The notes below the pieces were generated by a model, which saw only the letters and a list, made by a program, of their open reading frames with translations, searched no databases and was not told the origin of the DNA. From assembly GCF_018885305.1 (NCBI RefSeq), contig NZ_CP076544.1, positions 1,302,001 to 1,366,000 on the forward strand: 64,000 nucleotides of DNA, given 5' to 3'. Positions 4,192-21,807 of this stretch are shown one piece after another. The position numbers and the translations under genes are program-made. This stretch comes from Curtobacterium sp. L6-1. Its GTDB lineage: Bacteria; Actinomycetota; Actinomycetes; Actinomycetales; Microbacteriaceae. Positions within the stretch are counted from its first letter, which is position 1, and each line of letters opens with the position of its first letter.

Positions 4192-4562
4192 GAGCGAACG
4201 GGTCGGTGAGACGGTCGCGTCACTCCCCCGGGAGTGCCGAGGAACGTCCGGGCTCCACAGAGCAGGGCGGTGGGTAACACCCACCCGGAGCAATCCGCGA
4301 GACAGTGCCACAGAGAACAGACCGCCGGCGGCGACGTCGGTAAGGGTGAAACGGTGGTGTAAGAGACCACCAGGGGTCCGGGTGACCGGATCCGCTCGGT
4401 AAACCTCGCCCGGAGCAAGGTCAGACAGAGGATGTCGAAGCTGCTCGCTGAGTCCTCGGGTAGACCGCTGGAGGCCGACGGCAACGTCGGTCCGAGAGAG
4501 ATGGCCGTCACCGCGGCGCGAGCCGCGGGACAGAACCCGGCGTACGGCCGGCCCGTTCGCCT
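4192..4562 (+). ncRNA. rnpB: RNase P RNA, bacterial type A
   Basis: Catalytic RNA that trims tRNA 5' leaders. The 5' strand CGAACGGGUCGG (4195-4206) pairs with CCGGCCCGUUCG (4548-4559) to form P1. The conserved core GAGGAACGUCCGGGCUCC-type segment lies at 4239-4256, and the GGGUAA, ACAGAGAACAG-like and AGGGUGAAACGGU motifs at 4272-4353 are hallmark RNase P elements. Exact ends are estimated from P1 pairing. A strong terminator hairpin follows 11 nt later. Confidence 0.95.
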
Positions 4563-17646: not shown

Positions 17647-18615
17647 GTGTACACCGACATCACCGGCCCCGAACTCACCTCGTACCGCGGCAGCGTCGCC
17701 GAACCGGACGACTTCGACGACTTCTGGCGGCGCACCCTCGAGGCAGCCCGCCAGCACGAGGTCGACGTCCGGCTGACCCCGGTCGACACCGGCCTGACGA
17801 CGGTCGACACCTACGACGTGACCTTCGCCGGGTGGGATGGGCAGCGCATCGCGGCGTGGCTCACCGTCCCGGCCGGCACCGCACCGGGTGCACCGGTCCC
17901 CGCGGTCGTCGAGTACCTCGGGTACGGCGGCGGACGCGGCCTGCCGACCGAGCGGCTGCTCTGGGCATCGGCCGGGTACGCGCACCTGCTCATGGACACG
18001 CGCGGCCAGGGGTCGGGGTGGGCGACCGGTGACACCCCGGACCCGGACGGCAGCGGCCCGGCGATCCCGGGCGTGATGACGCGCGGCATCGAGTCGCCGG
18101 AGACGTACTACTACCGGCGACTGACCACCGACGCGGTCCGCGCCGTGGACGCCGTGCGGGCCGTCGACCTGGTGGACGGCACCCGGGTGGCGGTGCTCGG
18201 CGGCAGCCAGGGCGGCGGCATGGCGATCGCGGTGGCCGGTCTCGTCGAGGGCCTGGCCGGGGTGTTCCCGCGGGTGCCGTTCCTGTGCGACCAGCGGCAC
18301 GCCACGACGATCACGGACGCGTACCCGTACCACGAGGTCGTCGACTACCTGGCGACGCACCGGACCGCGACGGAGCGGGTGTTCCGCACGCTGGCGTACT
18401 TCGACGGGGTGCTGCACGCGGCGCGTGCGACGGCGCCGGCGTGGTTCTCGGTGGCGCTGATGGACCCGATCTGCCCGCCGTCGACGGTCTACGCCGCCCA
18501 CAACGCCTGGGCCGGCCCGAAGGAGATCACCGTCTGGGAGTACAACGGCCACGACGGCGGCGGAGCGCACGAGGACGCGGACACGCTGCCCCGCCTGCGG
18601 TCCGTGCTCGGCTGA
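17647..18615 (+). CDS. Acetylxylan esterase (AXE1 family alpha/beta hydrolase)
   Basis: Deacetylates acetylated sugars or xylan, also cephalosporin-C-deacetylase-like. The 322-residue length is typical. The nucleophile elbow GGSQGGGMAIA lies near residue 187 with Ser as nucleophile, the MDTRGQGSGW strand near 117, SVALMDPICPPST near 270 with the Asp, and YNGHDGGG near 300 with the terminal His. No signal peptide, so it acts on imported oligosaccharides. Start is GTG at 17647, with a CAGGGT box 7 nt upstream. Confidence 0.92.
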   Translation: MYTDITGPELTSYRGSVAEPDDFDDFWRRTLEAARQHEVDVRLTPVDTGLTTVDTYDVTFAGWDGQRIAAWLTVPAGTAPGAPVPAVVEYLGYGGGRGLPTERLLWASAGYAHLLMDTRGQGSGWATGDTPDPDGSGPAIPGVMTRGIESPETYYYRRLTTDAVRAVDAVRAVDLVDGTRVAVLGGSQGGGMAIAVAGLVEGLAGVFPRVPFLCDQRHATTITDAYPYHEVVDYLATHRTATERVFRTLAYFDGVLHAARATAPAWFSVALMDPICPPSTVYAAHNAWAGPKEITVWEYNGHDGGGAHEDADTLPRLRSVLG

Positions 18616-18761
18616 CGAGCGGGCTGCTCGACCGAGGGACGGGCCGCTCGCCTGCCGGAGGGCTGTCCAGGCGAGCGCGGTGCGCACGTACGCCACGAGG
18701 GCGTTTGCGCGCCCGAGCCCCATCCCGTGCTCGGTCCCGAGCCCCCAACGACCTCCATGTG

Positions 18762-19013
18762 TCACGCCGGCCCGGCCAGGGCCAGGAGCGCCGTCCGCGC
18801 GACGGCCAGCTCCCGGTCGTCCAGGTAGCGCGCGACGGACGCCGCGTTCGCCAGGCCCTCCGCCGCGTGCCGGAACACGAGGGCCCGGTCCTCCGGCAGC
18901 CCGTCCTGCGCGAACACGGTGCGCCAGTGCGCCGCGTCGGCGGCGATCACCCGCTCCATGCCCGGAAGACCCATCAGGCTCCCCCACAGCGCGGTCGGCG
19001 AGAAGAACGCCAT
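18762..19013 (-). CDS. Hypothetical small protein, possibly the 3' part of a broken gene
   Basis: An 83-residue reading frame (MAFFSPTALWGSLMGLPGME, then RVIAADAAHWRTVFAQDG) with helical, gene-like composition but no recognised family. Directly upstream, from 19165 to about 19050, another frame reads TPTDQLLAVAEHGLQEFTDE and then VMRHVDESEERR, which also looks like real protein but has no good start codon (GTC where GTG would fit) and is out of frame. The two may be one gene broken by a frameshift. The 18,616-18,761 gap before the esterase shows nothing supportable. Confidence 0.4.
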   Translation of the reverse strand: MAFFSPTALWGSLMGLPGMERVIAADAAHWRTVFAQDGLPEDRALVFRHAAEGLANAASVARYLDDRELAVARTALLALAGPA

Positions 19014-19194
19014 GGCCCGCTCGCTGCCACCGCAGAGCGTCCGCACCTACGCGCGGAGCACCCGACCCGCCGCTCCTCGGACTCGTCGACGTGTCGCATC
19101 ACCTCGTCCGTGAACTCCTGGAGGCCGTGCTCCGCCACCGCCAGGAGCTGGTCGGTCGGCGTGACGCGGTCGTGATCCGCTGGCGGTGGCGTCG

Positions 19195-19233
19195 GACGGG
19201 AGGCAGGACACCGGCCGTCACGCGCCTCCCGTC
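19195..19233 (-). terminator. Terminator downstream of the reverse transcriptase
   Basis: Perfect 10-bp arms GACGGGAGGC (19195-19204) and GCCTCCCGTC (19224-19233) with a 19-nt loop, 36 nt past the RT stop codon; separates the RT from the small genes further on. Confidence 0.65.
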
Positions 19234-19269
19234 GGCGTGCCAGCGGCGTTCCGGACCGACGGTGGCCCG

Positions 19270-20583
19270 TCACCACCTGATGCGCGCGAACTCCTCGTGC
19301 AGCCGGCGTGCCCGGCCCGGGTGCACCTGTTCGACCCACCCGATCCGTCCGAGCAGGTGTGCCCGGAAGTCCGCGTGGCCGGCACGGTCCTGGGACGCCG
19401 GCCCGTGCTCCACGCAGTTGTGCAGGACGGCGTGCAGGCGGTCGACCTCGCGGCGGCCGGGGGACGTCCGCTCGTTCACCACCACGCCGGTGACCGACTG
19501 TCGGACCCCGCGTCGGCGCACCCGCGTCTTGGCGGGGTTGAGGCGGTGGCCCTGGTCGGTCACGATGCGGTCGACGCCGCGGAGGAACGCGTCCACCCGA
19601 CCGGCGAGTGCCGTCCCGCCGCTGAAGGTGAGGTCGTCGGCGTACCGGGTGTAGACCGCCCCGGACGCGGCGGCCCACCCGGCCAGGCGGGCGTCGAGGT
19701 GTCGGAGCACCGTGTTCGCGAGCGCCGGGGACGACGGTGCGCCCTGCGGCAGGTGCGCGTCGGCGAGTGCTCGCCGGAGAGCGGCGCGGTCGTCCAGGCT
19801 GCCGCCGTCCGGCATCGCGCGGAGGACGTGGACGGGGACGCTGTGGGTGCAGAGGCCGGTGAGGACGTGGGCGAGCGGTTCGGCGTACCCGGCGGACCGG
19901 AGGACGCCGTACACGGAAGGGGCCCGGACCGACGCGAAGAACGTGGTGAGGTCGGCGGTGACGACGACCTCCTGACCCGTGTGCGCGGCGGCGCCGGTGA
20001 CGACGCTGCGGCCGGCGACGAAGCCGTGTGCCGCGTCGTGGACGGGCAGGTGCACGAGGAGCTCGTCGAGGAGCGTCCGCTGGGTCCGTCGCAGCAGGTC
20101 CATGGGCTTCTCGAGCAGGCGGGGAGTCCTGCCGGGGCGGCGGACCCACTCGTGCCGGTGGTGGTGCAGCGGGCTCGACGCTCCCGGTCGTCGGTTCCAC
20201 CCGCGGGTGTCGGCGAGCCAGAGCAGGTGCCCGACGGTCAGGTCGAGCTCCCGTGCCAGCTCGGGCAGGGTGTCGACGAGCAGGCGGCTCGACACGGTGG
20301 GGACCGCGCGGACCGGCACCGCGCGCCGCTGCAGCACCCGGACGGGACGTCGGTCCGCCCGACGGTGGTGGAGGCGCGCCAGGGCGGGTGCGCGGGCGAC
20401 GACGGCCGCCAGTTGCCGCGGTGCTCCGACGGGAGGCCGGGGGTACGTCTCGAGGGCGGCCCGGACCGCGAGTCCCACGTAGGCGCGCTCCGGCCCGACG
20501 ACGTCGAGGCCCGCGGCCGTCAGGTGCGCTGTGTCCCACCCCTCGGCGGCGAGGAACGCGTCGGCGAGCGCCGTGGCGACCAC
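19270..20583 (-). CDS. Retron-type reverse transcriptase
   Basis: A 437-residue RNA-directed DNA polymerase. Motifs, numbered from the GTG at 20583: AHGFVAGRS at about 185-193, motif A DLTTFF at 211-216, motif B QGAPSSP at 280-286, catalytic YADD at 314-317 (TRYADDLTFSG) and the retron Y-region VTGVVVNE at 364. No maturase, HNH or other fused domain. The retron NAxxH motif appears as GAAAH (197-201). The frame stays open to 20754, but that part overlaps the candidate msr-msd RNA, so the GTG 8 nt after the second inverted-repeat arm is preferred. The N-terminal ~130 residues resemble the extension of myxobacterial Mx162-type RTs (from memory). No effector gene is evident. Confidence 0.85.
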   Translation of the reverse strand: MVATALADAFLAAEGWDTAHLTAAGLDVVGPERAYVGLAVRAALETYPRPPVGAPRQLAAVVARAPALARLHHRRADRRPVRVLQRRAVPVRAVPTVSSRLLVDTLPELARELDLTVGHLLWLADTRGWNRRPGASSPLHHHRHEWVRRPGRTPRLLEKPMDLLRRTQRTLLDELLVHLPVHDAAHGFVAGRSVVTGAAAHTGQEVVVTADLTTFFASVRAPSVYGVLRSAGYAEPLAHVLTGLCTHSVPVHVLRAMPDGGSLDDRAALRRALADAHLPQGAPSSPALANTVLRHLDARLAGWAAASGAVYTRYADDLTFSGGTALAGRVDAFLRGVDRIVTDQGHRLNPAKTRVRRRGVRQSVTGVVVNERTSPGRREVDRLHAVLHNCVEHGPASQDRAGHADFRAHLLGRIGWVEQVHPGRARRLHEEFARIRW

Positions 20584-20591
20584 GTCGAGGG

Positions 20592-20756
20592 GCGTGGGGT
20601 TCCCGGGGGACCTGTCGGTGCCTCCGTGAGGGAGCGCGCGCGGAGCGCGCCGAGCCTCTCGGGGCGTGTGGTCCTGCTGGTCCTGCGTGCCCCGGGGTGA
20701 CCCCGGGGAGGGCGACGCGTCGCGCGCGCCGTCCGCCTCCCCCGGGAACTCCACGC
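20592..20756 (-). ncRNA. Candidate retron msr-msd RNA with a1/a2 inverted repeats
   Basis: Minus-strand RNA starting with GCGUGGAGUUCCCGGGGGA (20756-20738, a1) and ending with UCCCCCGGGAACCCCACGC (20610-20592, a2): 18 of 19 positions pair, with one A-C mismatch. Between them lie 127 nt of consecutive hairpins: 20690-20708 (7-bp stem), 20651-20661, 20636-20650 and 20622-20634, plus two tandem GCAGGACCA copies at 20669-20686. The RT start follows 8 nt after a2. This is the msr-msd-RT order of retrons. The priming G and the msr/msd boundary cannot be placed from sequence alone. Confidence 0.62.
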
Positions 20757-20760
20757 GCTC

Positions 20761-20766
20761 ACCCTA
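20761..20766 (-). promoter_or_regulatory. Candidate retron promoter -10
   Basis: TAGGGT on the minus strand; a start 6-8 nt downstream would fall at the first bases of the a1 arm (20756-20754). The -35 (TCGTCA, 17 nt upstream) is weak. It lies 12 nt from the opposing -10 TACCGT (20779-20784) of the divergent gene. Confidence 0.45.
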
Positions 20767-20778
20767 CGAGGATCGCGC

Positions 20779-20784
20779 TACCGT
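20779..20784 (+). promoter_or_regulatory. Candidate -10 box for the HbpS-like gene
   Basis: TACCGT 34 nt before the ATG at 20819, head to head with the retron promoter. Confidence 0.35.
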
Positions 20785-20818
20785 GACGAGCGACACCGCC
20801 GTCCCCGTGAGGAGCACC

Positions 20819-21358
20819 ATGTCCGAGAACCCCGGAGCACCCGGTCCCACCGCACCGTCCGACGCGTCGGGAGGGCGGTACCGTGCGCTCGACACCGACG
20901 CGAAGCTCGCCGTGCTGCTCGCCGAGGAGCGCGAACTCGACCACGACGTGTTCGACCTCGACGACGCGTGGGCGGTCGGGTCGTGGATCCGTCGGACGGC
21001 GCTGGAGCGGGGGCTCGGCGTGGGCTTCGCGGTGTCGTTCGGTGAGCAGCGGGTCTTCCACGCGGCGACGCCCGGGTCCGGCGCGGTGAACGATGCCTGG
21101 CTGGACCGGAAGTTCCGGGTGGTGCGGCACTTCGCGCACTCGACCCTCGCCGTCCGCACGCAGTACGAGGCGGGCGGGTCGACCTTCGACGAGGCAGCGG
21201 CCCTCGATCCCCGGCAGTACCAGGCGGCGGGCGGTGGTTTCCCGCTGCTCGTCCGCGGGCTGCTCGTCGGTGCCGTCGGTGTCAGCGGGCTGGAGATGCA
21301 CGACGACCACGCGCTCGTCGTCGAGGCCCTCCGCGCACACCGGGCCGGACGCGCGTGA
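20819..21358 (+). CDS. UPF0303/HbpS-like (DUF336) protein
   Basis: A 179-residue protein of the HbpS/GlcG-like family, alpha/beta proteins some of which bind heme or cobalamin. Recognisable parts: ERGLGVGFAVSFGEQRVFH (residues about 65-83) and GFPLLVRGLLVGAVGVSGL near 139. The ATG at 20819 has GAGGAG 5 nt upstream. The end overlaps the HIT gene start by 4 nt (GTGA), and the Rid-family gene follows with the same overlap, so the three form an operon. Ligand unknown. Confidence 0.82.
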   Translation: MSENPGAPGPTAPSDASGGRYRALDTDAKLAVLLAEERELDHDVFDLDDAWAVGSWIRRTALERGLGVGFAVSFGEQRVFHAATPGSGAVNDAWLDRKFRVVRHFAHSTLAVRTQYEAGGSTFDEAAALDPRQYQAAGGGFPLLVRGLLVGAVGVSGLEMHDDHALVVEALRAHRAGRA

Positions 21359-21807
21359 CGGACCGGGCGCGCGTGACGGACCGGACCGCGGAGGACTGCG
21401 TCTTCTGCCGGCTCATCGCGACGGACGACCCCGACGTCACGTGGATCGAGCGGGAGCCGGACGCGGTCGCGTTCCGGCCGCTGCCGGAGTCGGTCCTCGC
21501 CCCGGGGCACACGCTGGTCGTCCCGCGGGAGCACGCTACGGGCCTCCTGGACGCGTCCCCGGACGCGCTCCGCGCGACGACCCTGCTCGCGCAGCGGGTC
21601 GGCCGGGCGATGCGGGGTGCGCTCGGCGCGACCGGTGTTGTCGTGCTCAGCGCGACCGGGGCGGACGCGGGGCAGAGCGTGCCGCACCTGCACCTGCACG
21701 TCGTGCCCTGCTGGCCGGACGACGGGGTGCTGCGCTGGCCGGAGCAGCGGTCAGCCCACGTGGTGGACGGCGACGCGTCGGCGATGCTCGCGGAGATGTT
21801 CGAGTGA
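21355..21807 (+). CDS. HIT-family nucleotide hydrolase/transferase
   Basis: A 150-residue histidine-triad protein. The HIT motif HLHLHVVP is at about residues 104-111, with the middle His as nucleophile. CVFCRLIA near 16 has the two Cys common in HIT zinc sites; the second zinc pair is not obvious. Such proteins hydrolyse nucleoside phosphoramidates or dinucleotides. GTG start overlapping the preceding stop; the end overlaps the next gene by 4 nt. Confidence 0.9.
   Translation: MTDRARVTDRTAEDCVFCRLIATDDPDVTWIEREPDAVAFRPLPESVLAPGHTLVVPREHATGLLDASPDALRATTLLAQRVGRAMRGALGATGVVVLSATGADAGQSVPHLHLHVVPCWPDDGVLRWPEQRSAHVVDGDASAMLAEMFE

Follow-up and report, generated by a model that had tools for sequence, protein, structure and literature searches.

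In Retron-Eco1 (Ec86), the transcript of the reverse transcriptase (RT) is described as being cleaved from the msr-msd, the noncoding RNA (ncRNA) of the retron (PMC6868368), and, as the title of structure 7v9x states, the retron complex contains an effector. Here we analyze a candidate retron that differs from Retron-Eco1 in having no neighboring effector and that had been predicted from sequence in Curtobacterium sp. L6-1 (GCF_018885305.1, NZ_CP076544.1 positions 1,302,001-1,366,000; this 64,000-nt stretch is the window, in whose coordinates all positions are given, and L and G numbers are our handles for loci and genomes). All parts of the retron are on the reverse strand. The original prediction is supported by the present results, and the locus very probably belongs to the retrons. 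As the best explanation of the locus as a whole, to which we assign a probability of about 0.63, we propose a stand-alone chromosomal retron from an untyped clade that spans multiple phyla, with a leaderless RT mRNA in which the msr-msd would itself be coding sequence.

A structured RNA and its reverse transcriptase

The ncRNA extends from the outer end of the a1 arm to the outer end of the a2 arm (20592-20756). As predicted, the arms, a1 at 20738-20756 and a2 at 20592-20610, can be read directly from the sequence as pairing at 18 of 19 positions across 127 nt. This is the sole such pair in the window when 19-nt arms with at least 18 matches are sought at a spacing of 60-260 nt, and the same scan of 12 simulated first-order sequences of equal length found none. 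The segment 20584-20760 folds with a free energy of -109.9 kcal/mol (z = -4.64), and none of 200 shuffled sequences was equally stable. In an alignment of 39 RNAs (the window and 38 other loci), RNAalifold yields a structure of 43 pairs, 29 of which show changes on both sides. Paired cells reach 94.1%, against 76.0% after shuffling (none of 500 shuffles attained the observed value), and pairing falls to 40-47% when partner columns are slid by 1-3 positions, both controls being tilted toward RNA structure because the structure was derived from the same, mutually related sequences. The a1/a2 helix comprises 14 pairs, 12 with both-side change; msr hairpin 1 (helix 2, 20711-20733) has changed on both sides in all nine of its pairs, and msr hairpin 2 (helix 3, 20690-20708) is near-invariant, with 98.7% of cells paired and no both-side changes. 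A linker that is unpaired in the consensus structure (20665-20690) leads to the predicted msd (20611-20664), whose helices 4 and 5 covary and which would be the cDNA template, copied from 20611 upwards, if its extent is modeled on canonical retrons. Among 30 aligned loci of the genus, the region from the -10 box through a2 is nearly invariant and the sequence upstream is poorly conserved. Rfam has no match at the locus. By covariation, the fold is shown computationally, and this RNA is a real structured family.

The candidate priming (branch) guanosine is position 20737, the first base past a1, in the motif GAGG. This G is invariant in all 39 RNAs, and the AG at the a1 end is kept at the same position in most of the distant rows. 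GAGG is a variant of the AGC motif given in PMC6868368, and at the level of sequence the site agrees with a retron priming site.

The covariance model of this RNA (R1), which scores the window locus at 139.7 bits, matches 44 of 66 genomes of the genus, exactly the 44 that carry the RT; two of these RT matches are incomplete, the one in G021 ending with the contig and the one in G035 leaving part of the protein unmatched. In the latter (L123), the match is interrupted between residues 265 and 315 inside one open frame, perhaps reflecting an internal deletion or divergence. Class-wide, under stricter filters, the RNA was found in 11 of 296 genomes and, besides the window's own genome, all ten have the RT in the fetched flank. 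Furthermore, among 36 loci that were found by protein alone and had no part in training (L042, L044-L048, L050-L064, L066-L080), 34 have an R1 match with E <= 0.002 on the same strand upstream of the RT, and two (L078, L079) have none; the record titles in this set include Planctomycetes, Acidobacteria, Verrucomicrobiales, Myxococcales and Burkholderia, and many are metagenome bins. Over 90 locus sources, R1 has a match with E <= 0.01 in 86, including 29 of the training set and ten (L153-L162) found via R1 itself, and has none at this threshold in L033 (almost without upstream DNA), L078, L079 and L132. Eight of eight full-length RT matches in the genome family of L042 (L182-L189) are accompanied by an R1 match (E <= 0.002). 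Two control sets gave no match at E <= 1, namely, ten loci with other kinds of RT and 12 loci (L190-L201), again in the genome family of L042, whose match is confined to the later part of the RT. The original prediction was staked on conservation of the inverted repeats together with the RT, and in the relatives they are indeed conserved, covary and travel with the RT. R1 links a single RNA family with a single RT clade that has no type and is found in several phyla; the family of what had been described as an uncharacterized actinobacterial retron is not exclusively actinobacterial, given that loci with record titles from other phyla carry the RNA beside the RT.

The conserved RT fold occupies 19270-20583 (437 residues from the GTG at 20583), with YADD at 19633-19644. 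The QGAP, YADD and VTG motifs are all present where they had been reported. Among 85 aligned RT rows, YADD is present in every one, QGAP in 69 and the VTG of region Y, which the window shares, in 67. In region X, the NAXXH motif reads GAAAH in the window, with A and H kept and N replaced; the N is also missing in two of 16 validated retrons (PMC6868368). The PADLOC profiles RT_other (PDLC02949), RT_outgroup (PDLC03740) and RT_XIII score 563.5, 521.9 and 288.1 bits, respectively, an order that recurs in 10 of 10 relatives of one set and in 2 of 10 and 2 of 6 proteins of two further sets; RT_other and RT_outgroup rank first also for relatives with record titles from other phyla. Assignment to retron type XIII was rejected on these scores. 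In a 28-row tree of 13 clade members, nine other retron-like RTs (eight typed by PADLOC or plainly retron by annotation; L167 was not scanned) and six group II RTs, the clade has a support of 99/99 and the clade plus the other retrons 100/100, with group II apart and the order within retrons not resolved; thus, the RT groups with retron RTs, as had been anticipated. Retron RTs also top the comparisons of the window RT with structures in the PDB. In an AlphaFold2 model with a predicted local distance difference test score (pLDDT) of 95.3, residues from about 89 to 437 align with retron RTs, and residues 2-78 are modeled as a helical domain. When the first 96 residues of this N-terminal region (residues 1 to about 95; 20299-20583) were folded alone, the pLDDT was 85.6, and Foldseek detected no PDB match with E <= 0.001. 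We conclude that the enzyme belongs to an untyped clade of retron RTs and carries an extra helical N-terminal domain. A different, type III-A-like retron RT is present in five genomes of the family (L164-L168, four of the five typed), and such an RT accompanies the clade described here in G061 and G185.

The msr-msd as putative coding sequence

The TAGGGT box that the original prediction proposed as the -10 element is found at 20761-20766. A scan of 18600-21000 for the sigma-70 consensus detected no promoter, so the assignment of the -10 box rests on the TANNNT motif. All 43 Curtobacterium loci in which RNA and RT adjoin carry this motif at the identical place, and its end precedes a start codon by exactly 6 nt. 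That codon (GTG, 20752-20754 in the window) begins at the first base of the a1 core and is in the frame of the RT, with no stop between, in all 43 loci (41 GTG, one ATG in L119 and one TTG in L092). The RT fold of the genus begins right behind a2, yet in 30 of the 43, neither the interior of the RNA nor the stretch from a2 to RT residue 16 contains an ATG, GTG or TTG, and the next in-frame starts are at +69 or later. Six-base insertions behind a2 preserve the reading frame. In other open reading frames of the genus, the spacing between TANNNT and the start peaks at 6 nt (16 cases) and 7 nt (eight). Of 33 spacings, none but these two has more than three cases; the count covers 157 frames with 612 start candidates, from the window and the related genomes of L001-L021, and leaves out 21 RT frames. 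In Mycobacterium tuberculosis, about a quarter of the genes with a primary transcription start site are leaderless, and a TANNNT box precedes 73% of the primary start sites (PMC3898074); by analogy, this pattern may extend to Curtobacterium.

Outside the genus, we compared 37 loci with an RT match starting no later than residue 16 (the set of the Fisher count). All six that lack a start after a2 have an open frame that starts near a1; of the 31 that possess one, 11 do. In the start-codon count of the loci, a 5' start is one in the interval between 12 nt upstream and 6 nt downstream of a1. That count omits the near-copies L022, L026, L028, L032 and L037 (of L126, L127, L131, L146 and L143, respectively), as well as L057, L059, L062 and L153-L162, and it could not take in the split locus L163 or the inverted loci L138, L140, L141 and L145.

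Taken on sequence grounds, these findings indicate that the coding region of the genus RT probably starts at the first base of a1, so that the RNA lies inside the gene. The likeliest arrangement would be a leaderless RT mRNA with the msr-msd as its first 57 codons, the open frame at 19270-20754 then encoding 494 residues, that is, a 57-codon tail specified by the ncRNA followed by the RT. The RT frame had been predicted to begin 8 nt after a2, and an in-frame GTG is indeed found there (20583), but the biological start is probably elsewhere. Overall, we consider the coding overlap between msr-msd and RT probable. Several observations limit this reading: the tail peptide shows no codon-type constraint, so its sequence, if translated, hardly matters; open frames are common at such a GC content; an RTG stands at the 5' end also in loci that do not need it; the window carries the extra GTG at 20583; and among the six non-genus loci that lack a start after a2, a single genus accounts for four, and four carry additional starts within the RNA, which leaves L030 and L125 as the clean cases. 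In L163 (G023), a GTG in the RT frame follows a TAGCCT at a distance of 6 nt, and the tail, of 41 residues, is unrelated, so the RT seems to tolerate odd tails. The overlap could have originated because the 5' end of the RNA, an RTG at the transcription start, is a ready leaderless start, after which the old start behind a2 could be lost. On this reading, such loss is clear in Curtobacterium and has possibly occurred also in another genus of Microbacteriaceae (g5, with L125 the cleanest case) and in an Arthrobacter (L030).

The alternative that survives best, even if we regard it as rather unlikely, is an ordinary layout in which the RT starts after a2, at GTG 20583 in the window and elsewhere at near-cognate codons such as ACG, and the open frame across the RNA is a by-product of high GC. 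This explanation draws on the GTG found at residue 1 or 2 in 13 of the 43 genus loci, on an ACG, which 27 of the 30 loci lacking any other start have at -12 and L120 and L121 have at +3, and on the start after a2 that most of the non-genus loci (31 of 37) possess. However, the residue-1 codon is GTC, GAG or GCG in the 30 loci, so the GTG at this position is not kept as a start; the ACG at -12 sits within a2, is missing at that place in L119-L121 and, by eye, has no GGAGG-like sequence at the usual spacing in the main group; and all 43 loci retain the 5' start codon, at a fixed spacing from the -10 box.

A second alternative, that the conserved RNA does no more than regulate the RT mRNA in cis, as its leader (for instance as a feedback site bound by the RT), and is no template at all, appears very improbable to us. 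The mRNA of the RT is indeed predicted to begin with this RNA, and the role of the RNA as a template for a putative cDNA is a prediction from sequence. Yet a1 and a2 enclose it, the AG at the a1 end is invariant, and the msd-type hairpin covaries; furthermore, the RNA cannot be only a cis leader in five loci because it is divergent from the RT in L138, L140, L141 and L145 and about 2 kb away in L163, where the RT has its own start. Finally, the notion that the RT is of some other class (group II intron, defense-associated RT or diversity-generating retroelement), the repeats being incidental, has a negligible probability: the one hint of it, a weak group II match (TIGR04416) of 36.4 bits against a cut-off of 300, is outweighed by the separate clade in the tree, the fold, the profile results and the conservation of the RNA together with the RT.

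Under the leaderless model, the TANNNT promoter would start the RNA at the GTG that is the first base of the a1 core, and the RNA would fold in the order a1-msr-msd-a2. The RT would prime cDNA from the invariant G beside the a1/a2 stem and, if it acts like known retrons, copy the msd from 20611 into branched multicopy single-stranded DNA (msDNA) of some 55-75 nt. In Curtobacterium, this 5' end would most likely double as the leaderless start codon from which a ribosome may read the whole msr-msd, producing the RT with its 57-residue tail. Each transcript would then serve as either message or template, and since folding, cleavage or copying of the msr-msd would remove the coding start, msDNA synthesis might limit RT synthesis. 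We lean, with some reserve, toward this full version, in which the entire msr-msd is translated, each molecule is used as message or as primer-template, and the message for the RT is destroyed whenever msDNA is made. If the model is correct, the coding and template functions of this retron share the same nucleotides, providing a built-in switch between synthesis of the enzyme and of msDNA that is open to testing by single-base changes.

Genetic unit and neighborhood

The retron appears to stand alone, without a neighboring effector, as suggested in the original prediction and borne out by flank clustering and a gain-loss comparison. Among the 25 largest clusters of flanking frames from 80 relative loci (the best of 489), none includes more than eight non-genus loci. 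The cluster that has eight occupies varied positions and, by eye, looks like a common ABC-type protein; clusters with at least nine loci are almost wholly intra-genus, with scattered positions. By single linkage, the flanks of the genus loci form ten upstream clusters (44 loci) and nine downstream clusters (43 loci). At one site, two retron-bearing loci could be compared with two genomes without RT and RNA. In G052 (L210), 99 bases stand in place of about 1.58 kb of L106 and 1.62 kb of L107; in G059 (L212), about 340-355 bases stand in place of about 1.5 kb of either locus. The DNA gained or lost, some 1.5-1.6 kb, consists only of promoter, RNA and RT, with flanking hairpins. Should a partner be needed, it might be supplied in trans, or the N-terminal domain of the RT might itself act in its place. 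Because RNA and RT alone are gained and lost, the clade is suited to asking what a retron does without a neighboring effector.

In the nine frames beside the locus, the only defense-profile matches are a HIT-family ThsC2|ThsC match (46.5 bits) and, in a flavin adenine dinucleotide (FAD)-enzyme frame, C3a186 (37 bits) and LmuA (18 bits). A tripartite retron defense system was considered and rejected, as no effector was found in these nine frames, in the DNA gained or lost or in the 25 largest flank clusters. The HIT-domain protein (21355-21807, forward strand) lies behind an HbpS-like gene that is divergent from the retron, and its PADLOC match is probably generic. On the other side, a 79-residue frame after the RT (18777-19013, reverse strand) matches TetR_C_28 below the cut-off and is perhaps a tetR remnant. 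The terminator reported after the RT was not confirmed: there is a strong hairpin at 19195-19233 (reverse strand), possibly the 3' end of the unit, but it has no T-run, and a terminator scan found none. This hairpin, GACGGGAGGC...CCTCCCGTC, recurs near retron boundaries, in the upstream flanks of L091, L094, L096 and L103, and may be a terminator or repeat found throughout the genus. In L117 and L118, a sequence that by eye resembles the 3' end of a tRNA is located shortly upstream of the retron.

Some relatives are rearranged. In four loci of genus g45 (L138, L140, L141, L145), the ncRNA is on the strand opposite to the RT, and a palindromic CAGCCTAGGCTG between the two offers a -10 box both ways; in a fifth locus of this genus, L137, the ncRNA is on the strand of the RT. 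In L163 (3600-6000, G023), the roughly 2 kb between ncRNA and RT, each of which keeps its own promoter-like box, holds opposite-strand frames that by eye are a PIN toxin/antitoxin pair and a phosphotransferase-like frame. Elsewhere in the window, a class A RNase P RNA is encoded at 4199-4559 (forward strand).

Comparison with known systems

The window RT matches the PADLOC profiles RT_other and RT_outgroup over most of its length, and the names of these profiles carry no retron type; R1 would let annotation tools call loci of this RNA-RT clade. In the structure comparison, no solved structure was closer than those of other retron types, and the literature consulted yielded no function for the clade. 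Literature searches combining retron with Curtobacterium returned just a description of Mariniflexile, those combining retron with leaderless only papers with unrelated titles, and those on coding overlap in retrons almost nothing, none of which proves absence in print. Type XIII supplies the next-best profile; four multi-copy RTs (L192, L196, L198, L200) from the family of L042, whose record is titled Archangium, score best with RT_XIII, and R1 finds no RNA in the 12 loci L190-L201, which differ in this from the window clade. The myxobacterial retrons Mx162, Mx65 and Sa163 have an RT with an extended N-terminus, and in Mx65 the N of NAXXH is substituted (PMC6868368); the likeness to the window RT is one of published description. 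In the case of Ec86, the structural match begins at residue 89 of the window model, so this enzyme is without the N-terminal domain of the window RT. Cleavage of the Retron-Eco1 kind, if applied to the window retron, would remove the proposed start codon, and it is for this reason that message and template should exclude each other here.
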